Both the position numbers and the translations under genes were made by a program. Under the pieces are notes generated by a model. The model was not told where the DNA came from, searched no databases, and saw only the letters and a list, made by a program, of their open reading frames with translations. Below are positions 3,902 through 22,184 of a stretch of DNA of 23,480 bases, one piece after another. The stretch is from a virus: IMG/VR virus record IMGVR_UViG_3300006059_000013, positions 1-23,480 of that record, one strand, 5' to 3'. The stretch's first letter is position 1. Every line of letters begins with the position of its first letter.

Positions 3902-5308
3902 TTACATCCTTATAGTCGCTGTCATTCCAGTTTTTTGAGGTGAATTGACGCCATAAAAAGTTGCTCCACCTGCCTGCGAAGCCTCAAGCCAATTTATTGA
4001 GTGATAACCAGCCGATAAGGTCCCGTTATATTCTGCATCAGCAGGAGCAAAATCGTTATTAACATTGGAATTACTACCGCGAGTAATTTGAGCTGAATTG
4101 GAAGTAACTGAATCAATTCCTATACCTTGAGCGGCAAAAATACGACCTGAAGTTGATTGAAATAATCCATAAGCCCTTGCAGAAAGATTTTCTTCTCCAA
4201 TACCAGAAACAACATTAAAAGTGTTTGCTGCATTCGCATTAACTTGATGAAAGGCGGTTGCGCCGTAAGACCATGAAACGGCTGTTTCAGTAACGGCCAA
4301 TCCACGTTCAACCTGATTATAGCGATTATATACAAGCCGATTCTTTACCGAATCTTCAGTGGTATTAGCGTTATTCAAATAAATTGTCCCAAGATAACGC
4401 TTGGCCGTTGATCCTGTTAAAACCTCAATTCCATCCTGATAAGTCAATGCTGTTGCTCTTGCTGTTGCGCTTGACCAAGCCAGGTTTGAAATTGTTACCG
4501 CACCACCATTAATAAAAACAAAAATATCCTGCGGGATGCTTCCGGTAAGACCGGATAACGTTAAGGCCTGTTGTGAAAATGTGTATGTACTCCACTGATT
4601 AGAACCGTTCCAAATTGAAACCAAATTACCCTTATAAGGAGTCCAATAGAGAGTACCGGCTGCCGTAACATCATTAATTGTTACAGGCGTCCCGCTGGTC
4701 AAAGTCAATCGACCATTACAAACTGTATTACCTGAGCTATAGGGATAAAGGCCGTCTAAATTCAAAATAGCTGCCGTGGAACTAAGTGCTAAAAATATTG
4801 GAACGACATAAGAACCAACAGCCGAAGGAGGGGTTGATGTCGTATTTCCAGCTACCGATGCGCTTAAATAATATTGAGAACTAGAAACAAGTCCGCTTAA
4901 TCCAGTAATAACACCAGCTTGAGACAGCGTAAAATTATTACCATCAGTTACAAACGAAACAACGCCTGCAACAACTGAGGTTCCAATTGCATTCGCTTCT
5001 GCTGCCGCATAAGCCGTCCCTGTCCAATAAAGAACATTACCAACAGAAAAACCATGCGCTGTCTGTGCTACATTCTTCCCCACCAAACCAGCCGTAGATT
5101 GAGCGGCCAATGCGCTGATCGTAAATGCCCTTAATGTTGAACTGGATGATTGCCAGTAAAGAACACGGTCAACATTCTGTACCGTTGAATCTACCGATCT
5201 TCCACTAATACAAGTTGGATCAAAAGCACCGCCGGCCAATGAAGCCAGCTTAGTATTTGTTACCTGTTCAGTTGGTGTAAAAGCGTACCCTGGATTTACA
5301 TCAGACAT
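3902..5308 (-). CDS. Fibre-like virion structural protein
   Basis: This 468-aa, Ser/Thr/Asn/Gly-rich beta protein has no cysteine motifs or enzymatic residues. The central part (about residues 198-335) shows a segment widespread in phage fibre and decoration proteins: GRLTLTSGTPVTINDVTAAG, TLYWTPYKGN, a stretch around LTLSGLTGSIPQDIFVF, TARATALTYQDG, KRYLGTIYL and TTEDSVKNRLVYNRYNQV. The N-terminal half has HGFSVGNVLYWTGTAY, resembling short Ig-like surface modules. The start overlaps the 104-aa gene by 8 nt, implying coupling. It probably decorates the tail or capsid and may bind the host surface. No depolymerase or protease residues are visible. Confidence 0.75.
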   Translation of the reverse strand: MSDVNPGYAFTPTEQVTNTKLASLAGGAFDPTCISGRSVDSTVQNVDRVLYWQSSSSTLRAFTISALAAQSTAGLVGKNVAQTAHGFSVGNVLYWTGTAYAAAEANAIGTSVVAGVVSFVTDGNNFTLSQAGVITGLSGLVSSSQYYLSASVAGNTTSTPPSAVGSYVVPIFLALSSTAAILNLDGLYPYSSGNTVCNGRLTLTSGTPVTINDVTAAGTLYWTPYKGNLVSIWNGSNQWSTYTFSQQALTLSGLTGSIPQDIFVFINGGAVTISNLAWSSATARATALTYQDGIEVLTGSTAKRYLGTIYLNNANTTEDSVKNRLVYNRYNQVERGLAVTETAVSWSYGATAFHQVNANAANTFNVVSGIGEENLSARAYGLFQSTSGRIFAAQGIGIDSVTSNSAQITRGSNSNVNNDFAPADAEYNGTLSAGYHSINWLEASQAGGATFYGVNSPQKTGMTATIRM

Positions 5309-6295: not shown

Positions 6296-7324
6296 TTAGG
6301 AGAACCGGCTCTTGGTACGAAGATTGATTACAAAATTCGAGTTGAGTAGTGAGCTCATGTAGAATTGTTTGTAACCGATTACTTTGAGCTGATTCAATGG
6401 ATCGAGTTTATCTGGCTGATCCAGAATGATCATGCGTGGAGCAGTCAGTGAATCACCCGAAATCGGGCAAATACCGAATGAATCACCACCAATGATCAAA
6501 CAGGAGTAAATAGGGCCAGCAGTCGTATTAGTCACACCGCCAGTTGTGGCAGCAGACGTATCAATATACTGTGCGCTATTAGCCTCACGAAAGGCGTTAG
6601 TTGCTTCCACAATCCGAAGACCATAGAGGCTTCCAACTTCACCTTTATAGAGAGCTTGAACATTGGAATATTCAGCCGCTCGCAGGAAATCCGCATCCCG
6701 CATGATATCACGAATGACCTGCGGAGGGAAAATACCCACATAACCACCATCAGGAACAGGAGCAAGATTGCTCTTGAGAGCTGTTACCGCATCCAGAACG
6801 TCCTGTGCATCAGTATAAGCTGCCGTAGTAGCAGCCGAGCTGATAGCAGAGAAAGTTCCCAATCCCTGAACGTAACGCTCAGTAATACCCGATGTAGCAC
6901 CGGAAGTTCCGGTATAATCGGATGTTACAAGCACGTTACGAGTAACGGTATCGGCCTTATAACCTGCATCCTCACCAAGCGTCTTTGTGCCCTGCTTGGT
7001 CGCATCGAAGAACTGGGTATCTGTCAGAATATCTGACAATTGAACCATTTCACCGAATTGCTTTAGAGGGACATTAATACGAGTCAGCGTGAGAGTACGC
7101 GAAATTGAAATCGGCACACCCTCGGTTAAATTTTGTACCTGAGTGGCATCAGCCGCCCCAGGACGGAAGAAAGAAACCTGTACGGCTCCTTCATTCTTGG
7201 GCAATTCGCCCGTTACTCCGTATTCATTAAGACGGAGAGTCATCATCTGGTACTTCAGAAGCCGCTTAATAAAGTAGCTCTGGTACTCAACTGAAAATGA
7301 GCCTGTCGTTGTTTGTACTGGCAT
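6296..7324 (-). CDS. Major capsid protein, N4-gp56 type
   Basis: This 342-aa protein forms the icosahedral head shell. It carries the order of features typical of the N4-gp56-family capsid proteins. The N-terminal TTTGSFSVEYQSYFIKRLL leads into ELPKNEGAVQVSFFRP and TEGVPISISRTLTLTRINV. QFGEMVQLSDILTD and GTKTLGEDAGYKADTVTRNV come next, then the conserved block GEVGSLYGLRIVEATNAFRE. The C-terminal part has DPLNQLKVIGYKQFYMSSLL. The length is close to that usual for the family. It follows the scaffold-like gene by 8 nt and precedes a likely decoration gene. The leader before the ATG is A/T-rich with no clear Shine-Dalgarno, notable for a gene expected to be highly expressed. Confidence 0.93.
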   Translation of the reverse strand: MPVQTTTGSFSVEYQSYFIKRLLKYQMMTLRLNEYGVTGELPKNEGAVQVSFFRPGAADATQVQNLTEGVPISISRTLTLTRINVPLKQFGEMVQLSDILTDTQFFDATKQGTKTLGEDAGYKADTVTRNVLVTSDYTGTSGATSGITERYVQGLGTFSAISSAATTAAYTDAQDVLDAVTALKSNLAPVPDGGYVGIFPPQVIRDIMRDADFLRAAEYSNVQALYKGEVGSLYGLRIVEATNAFREANSAQYIDTSAATTGGVTNTTAGPIYSCLIIGGDSFGICPISGDSLTAPRMIILDQPDKLDPLNQLKVIGYKQFYMSSLLNSNFVINLRTKSRFS

Positions 7325-10788: not shown

Positions 10789-11235
10789 TTAGTAGTTTGT
10801 GTATTCGTTTCCAGCCAAGTAGAAATCCATATATCCAACATTTGCCGGAGCGGTCTTCAAATAGATAAACAGGTTGTTTGCTTGTGGATAAGCCGTAAGC
10901 GTGGCCAATCCAACATTTTGATAACCTGTCGTAGAGTTAAGATTAGAAAGAGTATTAGTACCCGTATCCAATCTAGTTCCCGTTCCACCTGTTGCCGTCC
11001 AAATTTGAATAACTGCCGCACCCATCGTTGCAAAAGTTCCATAACCTGCTGAAGGCAGATATTCACTTGAAACCGGAGTAACTGAAACATCACAACGAAT
11101 AGGAACCCATCGCTGAACTCCGCCAGCATTAATCATGGGAATGCCGCCTGGAACTAGATCAATATTTGATCCAGAATTGGTTAAAAAAATTGCTGATTTC
11201 TGAGCTAACATACCGCCAGGGAAACGTGTATCCAT
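10789..11235 (-). CDS. Small beta-rich virion protein of unknown function (148 aa)
   Basis: The 148-aa product has no enzyme motif. It contains VQRWVPIRCDVSVTPVSSEY, IQIWTATGGTGTRLDTG and a beta-rich C-terminus (NNLFIYLKTAPANVGYMDFY), the composition of phage surface or capsid-decoration proteins. It is the last gene of the decoration cassette and its stop lies three bases before the portal start, which may make portal translation dependent on it. The leader before the ATG is an unbroken A-rich, purine-rich tract (11236-11282 on the complementary strand) with no Shine-Dalgarno consensus. Confidence 0.68.
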   Translation of the reverse strand: MDTRFPGGMLAQKSAIFLTNSGSNIDLVPGGIPMINAGGVQRWVPIRCDVSVTPVSSEYLPSAGYGTFATMGAAVIQIWTATGGTGTRLDTGTNTLSNLNSTTGYQNVGLATLTAYPQANNLFIYLKTAPANVGYMDFYLAGNEYTNY

Positions 11236-11282
11236 TTTATTTTTCTTTCTTTTGTTTTTTGTTTATTTTTCTATCTAAAATT

Positions 11283-12485
11283 TTATGCTCCGCATCCAAG
11301 CAAAGCCATTTGATGACCTGATGGATAAGTTGCTAAAAAACCAACTGTATTTAATGACATACTTACACCTGAAGTTGCCGTTACTATCTGATAATTTATT
11401 TCATCAGTTGAAGAGCAAATATCTGTATTTGAAACATCTTCAAAATAACCGGAAGTGGCCGATGTAATACTTACAGATTGATTTCCATTAACCGTATTTT
11501 TCCTAAACGTACAAGTTGATGCACCTGTAACGGTATTGGCATTAAGAAAAACAGCTAAATTAGAAGCTGTTAAATTTGTCAATGCCTTTGCCTGTGCATC
11601 TGATTCTGCGGCTACTACTCCAGCTGCCCCGGTCAATGCAATAACACTAGAAGTGTTAACATTCAAAGTTTGCCCATTCTTTGAGACAAGCATATGGGAC
11701 GTGTTATTTGTTGTAATCATGTCCGATGCCATTCCAACAACGGTTATCGAATTTGCATCAGCTCCAAATAAAAACGAATAGTTGTAAAGATCATTAACAA
11801 CAATTGAATCGGAGTTAGAAATGTCTTCAAAAAATCCAGTGGTTGACGCAGTAATACTTATTGTCAAAGCGCCCGCTCCTGTATTTTTACGACTTCCAGC
11901 CGTACAGGTTGTCTTGGAATTTGAACTGACGTTAACCATTAAATTTTTCATGGTTGCGGCAGTTTTAATCTTATATTGAAGATTCGCCTCTGTTGTTCCA
12001 AATGCCAAACCTCCAGCCATTGCTACAAATCGAGTTGAATTATTCAACGTCTGTGCGGAAGAACCCGAATTAATCATTCTAGTTGCTGTGCTGGTATTGG
12101 CAGAAAACAAAAATGAAATTGTATCACTGGTAATAGTGGTTCCAGTTCCTCCATTGATCATCTGGGCAGATAACTTATTCGTTGCAGAAATAGAATCAGA
12201 ATTTGTTAAATCCTGAAATTCTCCCGATGTGGAAGCTGTAATTGAAATAACCTGAGAACCATTTGACCCATTAATTCTTGTTCTTAATGTCGATGTAGCG
12301 GAAATTCCATTTGAACCAAGGCGAAGATAAAGGCCCGAAGCTGTACCTGGAGTTTGCCAAGTTGATTGATTATTTGCCTCCGTTGTAGAAGTCGATAGCT
12401 GGGTCATACCAACATTAAAATTGTTGGTTGAACTTGTAGCTAATCCAGCGGTTCTTAGCGAAGAACACAAAAGAACCGTTGCCAT
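11283..12485 (-). CDS. Surface protein with three tandem beta domains
   Basis: This 400-aa Ser/Thr/Asn-rich protein is built from three related units of about 128 residues. The clearest shared motif is SITASTSGEFQDLTNSDSI (81-99), ISITASTTGFFEDISNSDSI (209-228) and SITSATSGYFEDVSNTDI (339-356). Each is preceded by a basic strand with RTRINGSNG, SRKNTGAG or FRKNTVNG. The N-terminus (MATVLLCSSLRTAGLATSST) has weak hydrophobicity but no convincing cleavage site. The start overlaps the previous stop as TAATG, so it is likely translated by reinitiation. Repeats of this kind occur in phage head fibres and tail-surface proteins that may bind glycans. The function is inferred. Confidence 0.72.
   Translation of the reverse strand: MATVLLCSSLRTAGLATSSTNNFNVGMTQLSTSTTEANNQSTWQTPGTASGLYLRLGSNGISATSTLRTRINGSNGSQVISITASTSGEFQDLTNSDSISATNKLSAQMINGGTGTTITSDTISFLFSANTSTATRMINSGSSAQTLNNSTRFVAMAGGLAFGTTEANLQYKIKTAATMKNLMVNVSSNSKTTCTAGSRKNTGAGALTISITASTTGFFEDISNSDSIVVNDLYNYSFLFGADANSITVVGMASDMITTNNTSHMLVSKNGQTLNVNTSSVIALTGAAGVVAAESDAQAKALTNLTASNLAVFLNANTVTGASTCTFRKNTVNGNQSVSITSATSGYFEDVSNTDICSSTDEINYQIVTATSGVSMSLNTVGFLATYPSGHQMALLGCGA
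11382..12293 (-). repeat. Threefold protein-level repeat within the 400-aa gene
   Basis: Three diverged copies of a motif of about 46 residues lie at 12293-12156, 11912-11769 and 11522-11382, with centre-to-centre spacing of about 128 codons. Shared residues include RKN/RTR, the SIT.STSG.FED.SN.D core and a following NY/NK. The DNA similarity is low, indicating old duplications under selection. Confidence 0.7.
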
Positions 12486-12841
12486 TATTTAAGCCCTTCG
12501 GTTGGCTTTTTAACTTTGGAAATGGATTGATCAATTTTATCTGCATGAACATCAGGATGAAATAATATTAGATTTCTATTTTCATCAAAATTACCTTCGA
12601 CTTCTTCATGACTTTTTAGACCGTGATCTTTAGCCACCTGTTCACGACATGCCTGCCGATATGCGTTATCCCGCCAAGCTGAAAAATGGACTTCCTTATG
12701 ACTGGAAGATTTATGATGCTCACAAGGAACAGAATCGATAGCTTCATGAGTCCTGGCTTCTTGCGGCAAATCCGCATCAAACTGATATTGTATTTCACAA
12801 TTACAAGTATCAGAAACCCATTTTGTAATCGACATTCTCAT
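12485..12841 (-). CDS. Small Cys/His-containing phage protein (118 aa)
   Basis: The gene starts at 12841 in an ATGA overlap with the 418-aa gene and ends in a TAATG overlap with the 400-aa gene, so all three are probably coupled. The product starts MRMSITKWVSDTCNCEIQYQ and has a later SVPCEHH. The two Cys of TCNC with CEHH could form a zinc- or metal-binding site, which is unproved. The second half is charged and helical (RDNAYRQACREQVAKDHGLK). Proteins with this WVSDTCxCxIxYxFD start are common among unnamed genes of tailed phages. The function is unknown. Confidence 0.72.
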   Translation of the reverse strand: MRMSITKWVSDTCNCEIQYQFDADLPQEARTHEAIDSVPCEHHKSSSHKEVHFSAWRDNAYRQACREQVAKDHGLKSHEEVEGNFDENRNLILFHPDVHADKIDQSISKVKKPTEGLK

Positions 12842-14094
12842 TTATAAATAAGATTAGCAACAAGCGCGGTTGTTGGATTTGTTCCACCTGAAGCGGTCGT
12901 TGCGGCCAGATATGAAATTGCCGTTCCAAATGCTATTCCGTTTGAAAATTCTACATTTGCGCCCGATGAAGCTGGAATACCAAGCGACATGGTTGGAGTC
13001 GTAGTTCCTGCCGTTACCGTTGCAGCTGTGGCATTAAAAATCTGAATAAAAGAAACAACCGTATTCGGATTATAAACATACCAACCGCCTACTTGACCCG
13101 CTGAAGCCTTTGCCTGAACTGCCACATTTGTTAAAGTTGCGGCAAAACTAGTTGACCAACCACCCGATGTGGCGGGCTGAAGTGAAACAAGCCAAGGCGT
13201 ACTATTGGGAGTATTTCCAGGCTGAACCGTCCAAGTACCTGATTGGGTAGATGGAAATGTAGTATTCGTTACCCCAACAGAAATAGGATTTTGATTACTA
13301 GCGATTACTACCGGCATCGAAGCTGCCATTGTAGTGGCTCCAAGGGCAATAGCAGCCCCGCCAACTTGAGCTAAATTTGTCGAAGCATTCGCCTGAATAT
13401 TAAAAGTACCCGTTCCAGCGTTGGCAGTAACCGTTCCCGACATTGGAATGGCAGTCTGATTACTAGCAATAACGACCGGCATACTTGCCGCCATTGTGGT
13501 AAGACCAAGAGCAATTGCTCCACCTCCAATCTGATTAACATTAACCGATTGATTAGCTGGAAGCGCAACTGAATCAGGTGTAACTAAAAATTTATTTGTA
13601 TTAGCAGGTGTATCAGCAAGAGAAACCCGGATTAATCCGTTAACATCCATCGAAACAGGATTTGTTTGACCTGTGGTATAAGTTGGTTTGGCCGTTGTTA
13701 CCGCTCCCTGAATCAGCATTCCGCTTTTACCGGGAGTACCAGAACTTTGAGTTACAACGCCACTTGTGCCGCCAGCTGCTACATTTACCAAAAGATTTCC
13801 GCTAGCATCTACTAAATTAGTAAAAACTTGACCATTGGTTAATGTCGTCGCTCCCGAAAGATACTGAGCCATTGCCAACGTACCAGTTGGATTTGTAACA
13901 GTAGTCGGACTAACATACTGAGTGCCGGAAGTTCCCCCTGAACCAATATCAACCAGCAATTTTCCAGTGGCCTGATTTACAGCAAGATAAACAGAATCAT
14001 CAATATTATAGGTAGGCGTTGAAGTAGCATTAACAGCCCTTGCCAAAGGAATAACATATTCTCTACCGGGTACGCCTGATAATGACCAGTCCAT
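12838..14094 (-). CDS. Repeat-containing virion surface protein (418 aa)
   Basis: This 418-aa protein is low in charge and rich in Ala, Thr, Asn, Val and Gly. Two near-identical segments contain TTMAASMPVVIASNQ, at residues about 199-213 and 254-268, each preceded by GG.AIALG. An earlier pair of related strands is at 31-57 and 82-113 (GKLLVDIGSGGTSG, GNLLVNVAAGGTSG). Such repeats are typical of extended phage fibres or head fibres. The ATG lies just downstream of the palindromic element at 14097-14115 and a promoter-like sequence, so this gene may start a separate transcript. No receptor-binding or hydrolase motif can be named. Confidence 0.74.
   Translation of the reverse strand: MDWSLSGVPGREYVIPLARAVNATSTPTYNIDDSVYLAVNQATGKLLVDIGSGGTSGTQYVSPTTVTNPTGTLAMAQYLSGATTLTNGQVFTNLVDASGNLLVNVAAGGTSGVVTQSSGTPGKSGMLIQGAVTTAKPTYTTGQTNPVSMDVNGLIRVSLADTPANTNKFLVTPDSVALPANQSVNVNQIGGGAIALGLTTMAASMPVVIASNQTAIPMSGTVTANAGTGTFNIQANASTNLAQVGGAAIALGATTMAASMPVVIASNQNPISVGVTNTTFPSTQSGTWTVQPGNTPNSTPWLVSLQPATSGGWSTSFAATLTNVAVQAKASAGQVGGWYVYNPNTVVSFIQIFNATAATVTAGTTTPTMSLGIPASSGANVEFSNGIAFGTAISYLAATTASGGTNPTTALVANLIYK
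13270..13533 (-). repeat. Twofold repeat inside the 418-aa gene
   Basis: Two copies about 165 bp apart (13426-13533 and 13270-13368) encode GG.AIALG.TTMAASMPVVIASNQ. The DNA still shares runs such as ggcat and gattactagc, so duplication is more recent than in the 400-aa gene or is maintained by gene conversion. Confidence 0.72.
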
Positions 14095-14096
14095 AT

Positions 14097-14115
14097 TTTA
14101 CTTTATCGTTAAAGT
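14097..14115 (-). repeat. Palindromic element, copy B
   Basis: The 19-bp sequence TTTACTTTATCGTTAAAGT is identical to part of 17780-17798. Its core arms ACTTTA and TAAAGT flank a 4-nt centre. It lies three bases before the ATG of the 418-aa gene and just downstream of a promoter-like sequence, the position of a repressor operator or a 5' UTR hairpin. Confidence 0.75.
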
Positions 14116-14117
14116 TA

Positions 14118-14145
14118 TTTGTAGTTTTGCTTGATTATTTGTCAA
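14118..14145 (-). promoter_or_regulatory. Possible sigma70-type promoter before the 418-aa gene
   Basis: On the minus strand a perfect TTGACA (14145-14140) is followed after 16 bases by TACAAA (14123-14118), four of six positions matching TATAAT. It lies in the 59-nt gap after the 190-aa gene. The expected transcription start falls within or next to palindrome copy B. The -35 also sits within a short inverted repeat, CTTGA/TCAAG. Confidence 0.38.
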
Positions 14146-14153
14146 GTTTTAAT

Positions 14154-14726
14154 TTAAATTCCAAATGCGTTAACTATCAAATTTTTGCATGTCATGGTGT
14201 TCGATGCATTCGAGGTTCCCCATGCAGCAGTCAGCCCGCAAGTAAGCGTTACAGCATTACTAAATGCACTTCCCTGATCCGTCATATCGTATTGAGCATT
14301 AACTAATCCTGTACTGAAATATTCAAAAGCACCCACTGAATAACTGGTTGATGTCAAACCAGCAACTCGGCAAGTCATTAAGAAATCAACGTACCAATTG
14401 GTTGTCCCTGTAATCGCCACCGTAGCATTAGCTGCTGTTGCGGCCATGACTGTACCATTAAACTTGAACTTAATAGTTAAGTTTGGAGTTGCGGTATTAG
14501 TTATAATTCCATTAGCTTTAACATGTAATCCACGCCCAGCTATAAACCAATTGGCCGGAATTACCTTCGTTCCAACTCCCGTACTATCTAAATTTGTTTC
14601 AGAGGTGGAATTTCCAGCCGTACCATCTGCCGTTTGAACAAAAATAGTCCGCATCGGCATAACCGATAGAGATCCAGTGTCATACCAATCAATATCCGTT
14701 AAAAGTATGGGATTACCAGTTGACAT
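14154..14726 (-). CDS. Beta-rich virion surface protein (190 aa)
   Basis: The 190-aa product is rich in Thr, Ala, Asn and Gly, with alternating beta-strand patterns. Blocks include TKVIPANWFIAGRGLHVKAN and TATPNLTIKFKFNGTVM, followed by TNWYVDFLMTCRVAGLTS. The VIPAN.. motif followed by a G..L.V.A.G and T.TP.LT...K.G pattern recurs in small phage virion proteins that decorate capsids or fibres. It begins four bases before the stop of the tailspike gene would be reached in the opposite sense, that is, its ATG follows that stop by three bases. The function is unknown beyond a likely structural role. Confidence 0.7.
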   Translation of the reverse strand: MSTGNPILLTDIDWYDTGSLSVMPMRTIFVQTADGTAGNSTSETNLDSTGVGTKVIPANWFIAGRGLHVKANGIITNTATPNLTIKFKFNGTVMAATAANATVAITGTTNWYVDFLMTCRVAGLTSTSYSVGAFEYFSTGLVNAQYDMTDQGSAFSNAVTLTCGLTAAWGTSNASNTMTCKNLIVNAFGI

Positions 14727-14729
14727 AAA

Positions 14730-17255
14730 TTATTGAAGAATATGACTATCTACAACATTATACGGAGTTGTAACTGAATTTGTTATACTAGAATCCAATG
14801 CACTAAATAAATTGCACTGAACAATTGAAGTAGATCGAGTACCACCATTATTAATATAAACCTTTCCAGGTGATAATGGAATGAGGGTGCAATATCTGGT
14901 CACTCCACCCGCCGTTGTATTATTAGATCCAGCTTCATAAATACAATGACTGCTGGTTGTAACTACATTAATAGTACAATGATCTATAACTCCAATATTT
15001 CCATTAAAAAAAGAAATTCTATAAGCTAAATTACAATTTTTAATAGTATACGATTGTGCCGTGCCTCCTAAATAATTAGTATCATTATTACCTAATGTAC
15101 AATTATCAATTATAGCACCATTGGCTAAATTACCATTCGAGTGGCCTGGCCATCCACCATTAGCCCAATCGCACCGGATTGCCTGGCCCTTAAATGCTTG
15201 GCCTCCACGCCATGCATTATAAGTACCGGCCCCGTTAAAACGCATATCTTCCAAAATAATGGCTGTTCCACCACTTCCCAAAGGCCAATAAGCTGCAGTT
15301 GTGCTGCTATCCTGACTTCCTACCGTTGATCCATCTGAAGTAGTTATCTGAAAGTTTTTAAGTCGATAATCAGATACTGAACTGGCAATTGTAAATGTCT
15401 GCGCCGAACTGGTAATAATTGTATCATCCCGACTACCCTGACCAATAAAATCAATAAAATTATTTGAAGCAATCAATGATCCCGTCGCAGTTCCGGAAGA
15501 ATTTCCGGCCGTAACTGTGTAATTACCGGCAGGAATCATCAGAGAAACCCGATTTGTCGCTGACGGTGCAGCCCCGTTGGGGTAAATGAGCGATGCATGG
15601 GTATAAGCCGCGACGAGATTGGAGCCATTGGTCGTTACGTTTGAACCAGCTGCCCAACGCACTTCCGATGGAAGCGTGTTTGACGTACCGGGCTGAAGCG
15701 TGATTGGCGCACCTGTCTCAGTCAGATTATCATGCCAAACAAACGTCAACGGAGCCGTATAGGCGAAGACACTATAGAGCTTGGAATCGACCTGATTGTC
15801 CGTAATGTCCACCAGGAAAGCCGTTCCGCTATTGAGCAAGAAACCGCCGGTCGAGCAGTCCAGATGACCCCCCGTATCGGCTGTCGATCCTTCGCTAGAT
15901 CCAGTCGAGGGAAACGAAAAACTAGTTGAACTATTACGAGTAACTGTAACATATCCTAAATTGTAACCTGTACCGCTAAAACCCGACGTGTCCACAATGT
16001 CGCCAGTCTGATAGTTCTGGGCCGTGCTGAACGTGACCGTAGCCACGTTTGAACCGTTACGTGATCTAGTAGCCGTTGCCACCGTTCCCTGTTTCCAGAC
16101 GACGGTGTTTCGCTTAATCCGGTAGCGCGTGGCATTGCTCGCGCTGCTGCCGAACCCGTTGAAGGCCGCCTTCAGGTTGTTGATGTTGCTGCCGGTACTC
16201 AATGGCATCGTGCTCATCTCAATAAAGTTGTCCGAGGTGTCGAGATTCAGCGATATGTTCGACCCTGATATATTAAAATTGAACGCCTGGATGATGATGC
16301 CGCGCAAAATATTATTGTGGGCCTGAAGCTGCGAAATCGGGCCTTCAGTATAGAGGAACTTGTTGCAGTTCGTGGCGCGATTTCCGTAGATGCTAAAGCC
16401 CGATCCAGTCACCCCGATGCAGCCGCAATTCGTGTTGGTAGCCGACGAGAATTGCAGATGATTATAATTCTCAAAGTAATTCTCGTAGATCGACGAATTA
16501 GCATTGTACACCGTTGTCGATCCACCATTTGCTCCGAGCGAGAAAATATCGCAGGCCGTCCCATAATCCCCTTGAAAGGCCGAAAACCAGCAGTTGTGAA
16601 TCGATGCATTGGTAAGGGCCGTGACGATTCCCGAAAGCGTTGGGGATGAAATCTTGCATCCGAAATGTTCCTGTCCGTTGGCGAAGTTTCCGTATCCGTT
16701 CTTGAACGCGCAATTAAAGACCTCGCACCCTGTCGTCCCATCAATCTCCAGAAAGTTAGCAACGCTGGTCGATGGAGGTGAACCTGATCCCAAAGTCGGC
16801 CAATTCGCATCAAAGGTAAATCCGCTAATCCGTGTGTTTTTATTGTCCGTAGTCGCAAGCGTCTGAAACATTACAATCTGTCCGCTGTCAGGCAATGCGA
16901 ACTGCTGAATCGTAGATAACGTCAGGCCGGCCCCCTCATACCAATTTCCTCCCGGCAAATTAAATCCATGAGCAACTGAACTAAAATTATTAGGAGAACC
17001 GTAAGTTGGAAATGTTCCGGGGCCAAAATGAATATGCGCTCCCCCGCTAGGCGCAAGAGCTGGCAAAGTCGTATTAAAAAATGTATCTACTAAAGCAGCA
17101 GTTGATAAATTATAGGGATTGGTTATTGCACCATTACCAGAAACACCGTCCGTCCTAAGTGCAACCCAAATATCCAATGGATAACCAAGCAGAGTAGGCG
17201 TTGGTATTACTGATCCAGAACCTCCACCGCCTAAAATTGTCGGCCAATAGGCCAT
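14730..17255 (-). CDS. Beta-helix tailspike, probable receptor-binding/depolymerase protein
   Basis: I place the start at the ATG at 17255, two bases after the preceding stop. A longer frame starting at 17330 would overlap the previous gene by 73 nt and add a basic, unlike segment. The 841-aa product starts MAYWPTILGGGGSGSV, a Gly-rich tail-attachment region. From about residue 140 it has beta-helix rungs (GFTFDANWPTLG, NCAFKNGYGN, NCWFSAFQGD, IYENYFENYNH, IYGNRATNCNKF, HNNILRG). An Ig-like module lies at about 388-460, and a second rung series toward the C-terminus (DNCTLGNND, IKNCNL, IDHCTI). Such right-handed helices bind and often cleave surface polysaccharide, but I cannot assign catalytic residues. 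The middle of the gene is GC-rich relative to both ends. Confidence 0.82.
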   Translation of the reverse strand: MAYWPTILGGGGSGSVIPTPTLLGYPLDIWVALRTDGVSGNGAITNPYNLSTAALVDTFFNTTLPALAPSGGAHIHFGPGTFPTYGSPNNFSSVAHGFNLPGGNWYEGAGLTLSTIQQFALPDSGQIVMFQTLATTDNKNTRISGFTFDANWPTLGSGSPPSTSVANFLEIDGTTGCEVFNCAFKNGYGNFANGQEHFGCKISSPTLSGIVTALTNASIHNCWFSAFQGDYGTACDIFSLGANGGSTTVYNANSSIYENYFENYNHLQFSSATNTNCGCIGVTGSGFSIYGNRATNCNKFLYTEGPISQLQAHNNILRGIIIQAFNFNISGSNISLNLDTSDNFIEMSTMPLSTGSNINNLKAAFNGFGSSASNATRYRIKRNTVVWKQGTVATATRSRNGSNVATVTFSTAQNYQTGDIVDTSGFSGTGYNLGYVTVTRNSSTSFSFPSTGSSEGSTADTGGHLDCSTGGFLLNSGTAFLVDITDNQVDSKLYSVFAYTAPLTFVWHDNLTETGAPITLQPGTSNTLPSEVRWAAGSNVTTNGSNLVAAYTHASLIYPNGAAPSATNRVSLMIPAGNYTVTAGNSSGTATGSLIASNNFIDFIGQGSRDDTIITSSAQTFTIASSVSDYRLKNFQITTSDGSTVGSQDSSTTAAYWPLGSGGTAIILEDMRFNGAGTYNAWRGGQAFKGQAIRCDWANGGWPGHSNGNLANGAIIDNCTLGNNDTNYLGGTAQSYTIKNCNLAYRISFFNGNIGVIDHCTINVVTTSSHCIYEAGSNNTTAGGVTRYCTLIPLSPGKVYINNGGTRSTSIVQCNLFSALDSSITNSVTTPYNVVDSHILQ

Positions 17256-17257
17256 GC

Positions 17258-17587
17258 TTAATCCAAGCCTCGATAGTAATCTCCTGAAACAACCTGACCA
17301 CCATTGGTTGCGCCTGAAACTGAACACCAAACCTGGCTCGTGTTAGTTATGCCTGCAATGGGGCAGGATTGACCATTGGCTACTATCAAAGCATCAATTG
17401 TCGGGGAAGAATTACTGGCATTGGCAATGCCCTGATCACCATCCCAAATCAACTGAATACTTACTCCGGTCGTGTTATTGACCATCATGCCATCGGCGCG
17501 GCCTACTGATCGAAATCTGCAAAACGCATTACCACCAGTTGAAAGAGTGAGAGAAATTGGTGAAGATGATCCATTTGCTAAGGCCAT
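17258..17587 (-). CDS. Small beta-rich surface protein upstream of the tailspike (109 aa)
   Basis: The 109-aa product is Ser/Thr/Gly/Asn-rich with beta-strand patterns (SPISLTLSTGGNAFCRFRS, TGVSIQLIWDGDQGIANAS, TIDALIVANGQSCPIAG). It lacks a transmembrane segment and enzyme motif. Its stop lies two bases before the tailspike ATG, so it may be translationally linked to it. This could be a small virion protein, tailspike chaperone or attachment protein. The ATG follows GTTAAAAT, with no Shine-Dalgarno. Confidence 0.66.
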   Translation of the reverse strand: MALANGSSSPISLTLSTGGNAFCRFRSVGRADGMMVNNTTGVSIQLIWDGDQGIANASNSSPTIDALIVANGQSCPIAGITNTSQVWCSVSGATNGGQVVSGDYYRGLD

Positions 17588-17590
17588 ATT

Positions 17591-17776
17591 TTAACTTTCA
17601 AGTTGGCGGCGCGGTTCTAATGCTTCCCCTCGCAAGAGGATTTGCATGACTGGAAACTTTTCTCTTGTCACCTCCAATCCTGATTTCTTGTCGTGAACCG
17701 CGCCAAATTTAGAAAATAGGAGCATTAAAGCGTTCTTTGTTGCGAAAGAATTACGCCTGCCTAACCAGACTGTCAA
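17591..17776 (-). CDS. Possible small protein (61 aa, TTG start)
   Basis: An open frame of 61 codons begins at TTG 17776, just after the palindromic element at 17779-17802, and ends three bases before the next gene. The product is basic and helical (GRRNSFATKNALMLLFSKFG, then KKSGLEVTREKFPVMQILL and a charged end). The lack of an ATG near the start and of a Shine-Dalgarno makes coding uncertain. It fills an otherwise empty gap of about 185 bp in a tightly packed region, which favours a real gene. The function is unknown. Confidence 0.45.
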   Translation of the reverse strand: MTVWLGRRNSFATKNALMLLFSKFGAVHDKKSGLEVTREKFPVMQILLRGEALEPRRQLES

Positions 17777-17778
17777 GA

Positions 17779-17802
17779 ATTTACTTTATCGTTAAAGTAA
17801 AT
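17779..17802 (-). repeat. Palindromic element, copy A
   Basis: Arms of 10 bp, ATTTACTTTA (17779-17788) and TAAAGTAAAT (17793-17802), flank the loop TCGT, forming a perfect inverted repeat. The internal 19 bp at 17780-17798 matches copy B exactly. It lies between the stop of the 69-aa gene and the TTG of the 61-aa frame, at the border between packaging genes and the decoration cassette. No T run follows, so a simple terminator is unlikely. Confidence 0.75.
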
Positions 17803-18011
17803 CAGGGAAAAGCGGGTCTTTTGATGCTGTAAGTAGGATTTTCGCAGCAGCGAACATCATTGGTATCAAAATGCTTGAATTGACCTGTATCACTCAAGAT
17901 AACCAAAAAATAACTATTATGATCCATACCGGGATCAGCCCAAATTATAGCCCGACCTTCGCCTAATGGCGTAATCACCCAAATCCAAGGCTCAAGTTGT
18001 AATGCCTTCAT
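17802..18011 (-). CDS. Small protein coupled to the large terminase (69 aa)
   Basis: The ATG overlaps the large-terminase stop as ATGA. The product has a beta-rich pattern with LEPWIWVITPLGEGRAII, then GMDHNSYFLVILSDTGQFKH and a short Cys pair (RCCENPTYS). ITPLGEGRAIIW followed by a D(T)GQF.HF motif is typical of short uncharacterised phage proteins, sometimes related to beta-barrel or SH3-like folds. The function is unknown. Coupling suggests a role near packaging or early capsid assembly. Confidence 0.72.
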   Translation of the reverse strand: MKALQLEPWIWVITPLGEGRAIIWADPGMDHNSYFLVILSDTGQFKHFDTNDVRCCENPTYSIKRPAFP

Positions 18012-19435
18012 ATTCCGGCATAGAACCCTTCCATGCCCTTACGATCAGCTCCATACTCCTGCTGATAGGTAAAACTGTCCTGTTCATTGGTATATTCCAT
18101 TGTCTTGTTACCAATCTGGTTAAAGAACCCGGAACAAGCGATTACCCCGCAAACTGCGTCAGCCCTGTCCGGGCTGTCCAATCCTCTTTCTTTCATCTCG
18201 TCTTTCTGCTCTAAACCATCTTTACCGGATGGGGAAGGCTTTTGACGCCTGGCTTGCATCTGGGAATGAGTCTTTTTATCCTTGGGCAAAATCACTTTGC
18301 AATTACGGATTGCCTCAGAAGCCTTGAACCAAATCTCAGCCCCACGATTGGCAAAGCGTTTACTATTCCGGGCTGGGCTATTATTCAATACTGGCATGAC
18401 TGGAAAACCCATCAAGCGCATCTGATTGTTCATGGCCATATTGCCCATACCCGAACCATCCGCAAATGTGTTATCACAACTAACCCCTTTTTCTCTCAAA
18501 TATTTGATGGCTTTACCTACGCTCATATTAGTATCAGACGATCTCCAGCAGAACGGCTCATAACACCTGTTACCCTCCATTACCGCTACCACACATTCAT
18601 CGCCGCCGGCTGCCCAATCAATAAACGCATACTTATCCCGGCCAAAATGGATCGGGGGATTAGTCAAACACTCATTTAAAATTGACCATGAAATAACCAC
18701 TTTATCGCCGTCCACCTCGTAAAACTCACTGAAAATAGCTGACTTAACCAGCGGATGTTCCCGGCCATATTCGGCAATCATTTGCGCCGTCTCTTCCGGC
18801 TTCAAATGCGGGCAATCCTTGGCCTGCACCCGATGCGTTCCAAAAAGATGGCTCTTTTCACCAAAGCACCGAGCAAAGTAACCCAAATTTTCACCAGTGC
18901 TTGACATGATCAAAGTACGCTTTTTGCTCTTGGCATTACACCGTTGCCATGCATCGAAGATAGCATCCGGGATGGCCTTCGCCTCATCAAATATACCCAT
19001 CAAATAACCACTGTCCCCACCATGCCAACCCTCAAACTTGTAAGGGTCTTCCGTGGTAAATCCCAAAGCCCTGGAAGCCGCCTTACCCTTTGGTCGATAA
19101 GTCAAATCCGTTTCGTTAATCTCCCAATCAGCCCCCAGCCTGCCATGAAACCTCTTGATTTGGCCCCAAAGCTGCTCCTTTACCTGCCGGAACACGCCCG
19201 CCGTCGTAACAACCTCACTACCCGGATAAGCCAGACAATGCCAAAGCAACGCCGGAGCCGCTATGGTTGAAGTCTTGCCCGATCCATTCGCAGCAGCCAA
19301 AGCCACCGGAATATCGCTCAACCCCAAATCCCACAGAACCAACTCCTGCCACCTGTATAAATTCAACCGAAGCTGCAATTGAGCAAACCCCACCGGAGTA
19401 CAGCGCGGGTCAATGCCTTCAAAGGGATTAGACAC
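18008..19435 (-). CDS. terL: Terminase large subunit
   Basis: This 475-aa ATPase/nuclease packages DNA through the portal. The ATPase half has AAANGSGKTS (residues 48-57; K54), a Walker A variant, YLMGIFDEA (144-152; D150, E151), the Walker B, and MSSTGE (177-182), the coupling motif. The nuclease half shows the acidic RNase H-like pattern: D273 in AFIDWAAGGD, D326 in FADGSGMG and an Asp in DRADAV (423 or 426). All key residues are present, so it looks functional. The gene starts with GTG and overlaps the 182-aa gene by 8 nt, implying coupling. It is followed by an ATGA overlap with the 69-aa gene. Confidence 0.94.
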   Translation of the reverse strand: MSNPFEGIDPRCTPVGFAQLQLRLNLYRWQELVLWDLGLSDIPVALAAANGSGKTSTIAAPALLWHCLAYPGSEVVTTAGVFRQVKEQLWGQIKRFHGRLGADWEINETDLTYRPKGKAASRALGFTTEDPYKFEGWHGGDSGYLMGIFDEAKAIPDAIFDAWQRCNAKSKKRTLIMSSTGENLGYFARCFGEKSHLFGTHRVQAKDCPHLKPEETAQMIAEYGREHPLVKSAIFSEFYEVDGDKVVISWSILNECLTNPPIHFGRDKYAFIDWAAGGDECVVAVMEGNRCYEPFCWRSSDTNMSVGKAIKYLREKGVSCDNTFADGSGMGNMAMNNQMRLMGFPVMPVLNNSPARNSKRFANRGAEIWFKASEAIRNCKVILPKDKKTHSQMQARRQKPSPSGKDGLEQKDEMKERGLDSPDRADAVCGVIACSGFFNQIGNKTMEYTNEQDSFTYQQEYGADRKGMEGFYAGI

Positions 19436-21668: not shown

Positions 21669-22106
21669 CTATTTACGTTGGTTCTCAATTTCTTCACAAA
21701 TCTTTAAATCTTCTTCTGAAGGCTCATAAAGTTGCTCAAATCCAAGTTCTTTAGCTCGAATTGACAACTGTTGTTTAATATCATTTAAAACTTCGTTGAA
21801 TGACTTACTTATTTGTTGATTTGTAAAGCGAATGACTTTGACTCCTGTTGAAAGCAGTTTACTGGAGCGATAAGAGTCGTAAGACTGCTGTGGCACCTGG
21901 GAATGATGTTTACCATCAAGTTCAATGGCTAATTGCATTTTTGGGCAATAGAAATCAAGAATGAAACCATTTCTGGGATGTTGAGTCCTGAATTTAAATC
22001 CTTGGAGATTTCTACATCTCAAAATCCTCCACAGTTTAAGCTCTGATGGAGTCATTTTCTTCCTTAAAGATTGAGCACGTTTGAGTAAAATTTGACGAGT
22101 TACCAT
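21669..22106 (-). CDS. DUF559 / Vsr-like endonuclease
   Basis: This 145-aa protein (from ATG 22106) matches the DUF559 domain, a PD-(D/E)XK fold related to very-short-patch repair nucleases and found in some homing endonucleases. Visible residues are E22 in the helix MTPSELKLW, then FRTQHPRNGFILDFYCP with D51 and LAIELDGKHH with E62, D64 and H67. A C-terminal helix-rich region has VIRFTNQQI and NEVLNDIKQQL. A TTG at 22145 would add 13 residues and is preceded by AGGA at good spacing, so the start is uncertain. It lies directly upstream of the small terminase. It may be a homing enzyme or take part in DNA processing. Confidence 0.85.
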   Translation of the reverse strand: MVTRQILLKRAQSLRKKMTPSELKLWRILRCRNLQGFKFRTQHPRNGFILDFYCPKMQLAIELDGKHHSQVPQQSYDSYRSSKLLSTGVKVIRFTNQQISKSFNEVLNDIKQQLSIRAKELGFEQLYEPSEEDLKICEEIENQRK

Positions 22107-22184
22107 GCGTGGCGCATATCTACAAGGGGGGAGCGAAAAAGTCAAGCGTGAAGTCCTAAGTGGTTAAGCTATAAAGATTGTCTT

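Follow-up and report, generated by a model that had tools for sequence, protein, structure and literature searches.

Introduction

In regulation of the P2 Ogr type, a small phage regulator and a dyad site coordinate several late promoters, and the sites bound by Ogr always lie some 55 bp ahead of the transcription start. The C1 repressor of phage P1 has 22 dispersed operators, which are 17 bp long and asymmetric (PMC8546580). Stoperators of the L5 type are 13 bp long and asymmetric, number 20–30 per genome, are oriented with transcription and lie mostly away from promoters (PMC6550527). These repressor sites are dispersed over the genome, and related phages have similar, non-identical motifs (PMC6550527).

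How the uncultivated phages, which dominate metagenomes, regulate their genes is little understood, and a recognisable operator would offer a handle on co-regulated genes and on phages that share a regulator. Here we analyse a repeated palindromic element in a linear virus record of 23,480 bases (the window), a fragment without its early region. We consider it likely that the 16-bp palindrome is a dispersed operator for a dimeric regulator, probably a repressor, at sigma70-type late promoters.

Results

Two copies of a palindromic element in the window

The structural genes of the window, which lie on its minus strand, encode TerS, TerL, a spike cassette, portal, scaffold, capsid and tail proteins; the portal, scaffold and tail names come from relatives and gene order. 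Comparison of the region with named phages by BLAST returned no match. The features around the two copies are as follows.

18008–19435, minus strand: TerL gene, upstream of copy A; matches phrog_2 (large terminase subunit) at E = 2.4e-19
17779–17802, minus strand: predicted operator copy A, palindrome ATTTACTTTA-ACGA-TAAAGTAAAT, with arms of 10 bp and a spacer of 4
17258–17587, minus strand: 109-aa gene, first after copy A and the leader and followed by the spike gene; no PHROGs match
14097–14115, minus strand: predicted operator copy B, ACTTTAACGATAAAGTAAA, with a 16-bp core at 14100–14115
12838–14094, minus strand: 418-aa gene, directly downstream of copy B; no PHROGs match

The preliminary description had reported an identical 19-mer at two sites, one of them inside a perfect palindrome with 10-bp arms. 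Both statements are exact: TTTACTTTATCGTTAAAGT occurs at 14097–14115 and at 17780–17798, the latter within the palindrome at 17779–17802. The copies are intergenic, form direct 19-bp repeats 3.68 kb apart, and read alike as ACTTTAACGATAAAGT on the coding strand, in the same orientation. Copy A overlaps the final stop-codon base of a 69-aa ORF behind TerL. At copy B, palindromy is limited to the 16-bp core (6-bp arms), the end of which is separated by 5 nt from the ATG of the 418-aa gene. With up to three mismatches allowed, the 19-mer has three matches in the window (the third is the palindrome at 17783 on the opposite strand) against 0.01 expected from window shuffles. A chance coincidence of the two copies, earlier judged unlikely, is very unlikely.

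Copy A lies on the TerL side of a spike/virion-protein cassette (10789–17801, about 7 kb, between TerL and portal), in the gap that holds the TerL–portal site of relatives. One copy had been placed at the cassette border, which is correct for copy A; the pair does not border the cassette, which is downstream of copy A and contains copy B as an additional site in its middle. Relatives have gaps of 40–800 nt between TerL and portal, and the same cassette was absent there from every relative found. Within the cassette, a 400-aa gene (11283–12485, minus strand) probably carries a triplicated domain, because it contains three diverged DNA repeats at a spacing of exactly 387 nt (129 aa). Elsewhere in the window, a 158-aa ORF beside the TerS gene (21669–22145, minus strand) resembles by eye a DUF559-type (very short patch repair-like) endonuclease.

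Promoter-like boxes and a possible structured leader

Outside long ORFs, the coding (minus) strand of the window has four TTGACA hexamers, and two of the four adjoin copies A and B.

17771–17776, minus strand: TTGACA (-35-like), separated from palindrome A by 2 nt on its downstream side; a -10 at 17 bp would be the poor TAATTC
17588–17770, minus strand: possible structured leader, from the TTGACA of copy A to the 109-aa gene, with a strong RNA fold
14140–14145, minus strand: TTGACA (-35-like), upstream of copy B and 24 nt upstream of its 16-bp core; possible -10 TACAAA at 14118–14123 with a 16-bp spacer

The promoter-like sequence noted earlier next to the copy before the 418-aa gene is the TTGACA at 14140–14145. 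A strict sigma70 scan called a full promoter at neither window TTGACA, because the -10 hexamers are poor.

The stretch 17588–17801, palindrome included, folds more strongly than its shuffles (z = -3.58), and GGCGCGGTTC...GAACCGCGCC closes a branched structure in the leader. Rfam gave no match for the window or the leader, and the structured stretch 17588–17780 had none in 289 genomes in a search without a positive control. A 61-aa ORF with a TTG start spans 17588–17770, and the leader may be coding. The same layout of palindrome, CTTGACA, strongly folding leader of ~200 nt (z = -3.64) and late gene is seen in the unrelated contig G006.

Recurrence and divergence of the site in related phages

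TerL alone as a query found no relatives among viral contigs, so we turned to alignments of portal and capsid. The 19-mer matched nine viral contigs. One of these, L012, is distantly related to the window phage (29% identity in TerL, 25–26% in portal and 24–25% in capsid) and has two copies in coding orientation, in the TerL–portal gap and in the gap after portal; the first occupies the spacer of TTGACA-17-TACAAG. Other relatives were chosen by protein homology and not by motif. In L134, found through portal homology to L012, three sites have diverged but share the same centre (TTAACGATAAA); one precedes TerS, the other two flank portal on either side, and all have a TTGAC box beside them. L188 and L189, near-duplicates found through capsid homology, have three diverged sites, again with the same centre and all in late-gene gaps; the portal ATG follows one of them after 28 nt. 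Relatives thus carry sites in the TerL–portal gap, and copy A therefore stands at that same place.

The closest relative, L017 (portal 51%, capsid 54%), is without the window motif. It has a palindrome pair of its own, GGTGTTWAACACC, as GGTGTTTAACACC and GGTGTTAAACACC at 4224–4236 and 6607–6619, before and after portal and each just downstream of a TTGAC. A different palindrome at comparable gaps is expected if operator specificity diverges, and the change from the window, L012 and L134 to L017 looks like specificity divergence of phage immunity systems; we recognised the variants in L134, L188 and L017 only after the fact. Relatives at 41–51% portal identity have no motif within two mismatches, and among those at 41–48% few have repeated palindromes in their gaps (two contigs, early region). 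Another kind of repeat was seen in L028, L037, L044, L025 and L024, where many pyrimidine-rich copies (GGTTCTTTCTTTGGTT or TCATGGGTTCCTTTCTTG) lie before TerL in intergenic gaps of the early region; this is perhaps another promoter or regulatory repeat.

Across the gaps of the window family (100 contigs, 86 kb) there are 10 motif matches, and four contigs have two or more; five permuted palindromes gave 0–6 matches in the same gaps, with 0, 0, 0, 1 and 0 such contigs. Two of these four are the window and L012, so the independent gain is L188/L189.

The palindrome in other phage contigs

Contigs without clear overall kinship to the window phage also carry the palindrome, several of them in two to four copies, and in these the site is often separated by only 1–20 nt from the start codon of a structural gene. 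G005 (37.8 kb, with an integrase and a long late block) has two exact sites and one variant, each 2–8 nt before a late ATG, and G297 (42.8 kb) has three, 1–14 nt before late ATGs. Two overlapping copies precede CTTGACA in G006, and a single site precedes CTTGACA upstream of the terminase genes in G298. Three sites within 200 nt lie in L061, a phage-like contig from a Verrucomicrobiia genome bin. Repetition at several intergenic positions is seen in the window (2), L012 (2), G005 (3), G297 (3) and G299 (4). Markov models predict 0.11 or less per contig at up to two mismatches, against the two to four seen in multi-copy contigs; only the extra copies count as independent evidence, because most of these contigs were found through one exact match.

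In the near-complete genomes G005 and G297 all sites lie in the structural block, and the early and integrase blocks have none within three mismatches; on these two genomes, the site is apparently limited to late genes. Related integrases occur in G005, G298 and L004, with a fragment in G297, and for this reason some of the motif-carrying phages are probably temperate. Integrases apart, we found no genes clearly common to the motif-carrying phages.

In G297, at 15189 and 28608 (L171: 189–204 and 13608–13623), the TTGAC box and the predicted operator are separated by another small palindrome, GGGTTTTATCCC or GGGTAAAACCC. The perfect palindrome ACTTTAACGTTAAAGT, or a near copy of it, is found in L007 (743 and 1598), a phage contig that encodes an RNA ligase, and in L011 (12268 and 4173), adjoining gene pairs that are homologous between both contigs.

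Position of the site relative to TTGAC

A TTGAC lies near 10 of 16 sites (3.6 expected, P about 4e-4), as counted from up to 40 nt upstream to up to 25 nt downstream over sites that had not been chosen via the TTGACA search. The position of the palindrome relative to this box varies: upstream of the -35, in the spacer, over the -10 or at the start.

This variation bears on the direction of control. A phage late activator could turn on these promoters, as Ogr does in P2, and such a protein would account for the restriction of all sites to the structural block in the two near-complete genomes. The palindrome also occupies an activator position, just upstream of TTGACA, at copy A, in G006 and G298 and at one G299 site. 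Activators normally keep a fixed distance, however, and most of the other sites overlap the spacer, the -10 region or the start. We therefore favour repression, because the placement is so varied, and regard activation as unlikely.

A T7-type single-subunit phage RNA polymerase promoter was dropped as an explanation because the orientation of the site is not fixed; the site is palindromic, is used in both orientations and usually lies beside a bacterial-type TTGAC.

Search for a chromosomal regulon and a regulator

The site could also belong to a conserved host protein, for example a repressor of the LacI family, that phages exploit. LacI-type operators are palindromes with a central CG, as is the site described here, and a near-identical site across unrelated phages suggests a conserved binding protein. 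In addition, two close copies (GCTTTATCGTTAAAGC and ACTTTATCGTTAAAGT) and a degenerate third lie in the Verrucomicrobiota genome G287 (L150) just before an ORF that by eye resembles LacI and that is a possible lead to the type of regulator. Against this, the exact palindrome is present in only 2 of 289 Verrucomicrobiota genomes, once on a phage-like contig. As exact copies are practically missing from these genomes, no chromosomal regulon is seen in them. The phylum is a candidate host of the window phage, on the strength of one binned contig and distant portal homologues. A host regulator thus seems a rather doubtful owner of the site. In two Verrucomicrobiota genomes no motif was found near the distant portal homologues.

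Among bacterial genomes there were 88 matches, mostly in genes, and L061 was the sole multi-copy phage-like case. Search patterns that combined TTGACA with the palindrome likewise gave mostly in-gene matches, in which ACTTTAACGATAAAG could code in frame for D-F-N-D-K and which redundant contigs repeat. We set aside L005, L008, L151–L158, L160, L161, L164 and L166–L169 as coding chance; the contigs with an in-gene match that were checked had no further copy at up to one mismatch. The LexA motif of Verrucomicrobia is TGTTC-N4-GAACA, which does not match the palindrome. G297 encodes some HTH_17/MerR-like proteins, none of them common to all motif phages, and no regulator gene for the site was identified, the window being only a fragment.

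Sequence of the site and its symmetry

In an alignment of 20 sites, the element is NCTTTAWCGWTAAAGN, with the core TTAWCGWTAA in all 20; TTA, CG and TAA never vary. Relative to the genes, the asymmetric centre is found in either orientation, and pairing is lost at the three outer positions in 7, 1 and 4 of the sites. Symmetric changes of outer pairs are few, yet above shuffles.

These properties also speak to an element that acts in the mRNA, a hairpin before start codons with a role in translation control or processing. Copy A could form a hairpin of 9–10 bp, many sites lie 1–20 nt before an ATG, and the excess of symmetric changes is what pairing would produce, although a DNA palindrome predicts such changes equally. 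The broken outer pairs beside a core that is fixed even in its loop CG, the use of both orientations and the distance of copy A and the G006 site from the ATG all count against a hairpin, and we hold this reading to be improbable. A DNA site for a symmetric dimer is favoured instead, since the core with its central CG is fixed, both orientations occur and the outer flanks vary.

The suggestion that the copies serve recombination, to excise or exchange the intervening spike block, has in its favour the two direct 19-bp repeats and the lack of the 7.2-kb cassette between TerL and portal in relatives, but it found no support and is extremely improbable: the copies flank other intervals in relatives (the portal gene in L012, for example), no empty, excised or swapped junction was seen, copy B is inside the cassette and not at its end, and the window fragment shows no recombinase.

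Discussion

A probable late-gene operator

The other suggestion of the preliminary description, a repeated operator, gains support from the recurrence of the site in late-gene gaps of related and unrelated phages, from the TTGAC enrichment and from the practical absence of the site from the 289 Verrucomicrobiota chromosomes. It fits the placement of the site on or beside TTGAC boxes and start codons. We infer that a dimeric regulator of the helix-turn-helix type, presumably encoded by the phage, would bind the palindrome and control sigma70-type promoters of individual structural genes. With several intergenic sites, one such regulator could govern several late transcription units jointly. In the window, the unit beginning behind TerL (leader, 109-aa gene and spike) would be under copy A, and the one beginning at the 418-aa gene under copy B. 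Repression would be the most likely mode of action, through overlap with the -35, -10 or start region.

More tentatively, TTAWCGWTAA with CTTT/AAAG flanks may be one nearly invariant late-gene operator common to several otherwise unrelated phage lineages that use the same or interchangeable regulators, a reading we raise with some doubt. The lineages concerned are uncultivated, podovirus-like and tape-measure-type, some with integrases. If it were true, a prophage already present in the cell could shut off the structural genes of a very different phage, or be unable to do so.

Comparison with known dispersed phage sites

As with the P2 Ogr system, one dyad site recurs at several putative late promoters, here for a presumed regulator. 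Unlike the fixed spacing of Ogr sites, the position relative to TTGAC varies. The likeness to the P1 C1 operators is that one short site stands at many intergenic promoters of one phage genome. In contrast to these 17-bp asymmetric operators, the site analysed here is a palindrome, occurs two to four times in a contig and, on the evidence of G005 and G297, stands at late genes only. With the L5-type sites it shares dispersal in a phage genome and the occurrence of similar but different motifs in related phages; unlike them, it is palindromic, few in number, near TTGAC boxes and start codons, and found in both orientations. The asymmetry of both repressor systems is not seen in the palindromic core TTAWCGWTAA, and sites at early lytic promoters, a trait of P1 and L5-type phages, were not found in G005 and G297. 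Because this defining asymmetry fails and the site is confined to late genes in two near-complete genomes, we do not file it with P1 C1 or L5. From this comparison, the element appears to be a dispersed phage operator akin to the P1 C1 and L5 sites, yet a member of neither class.
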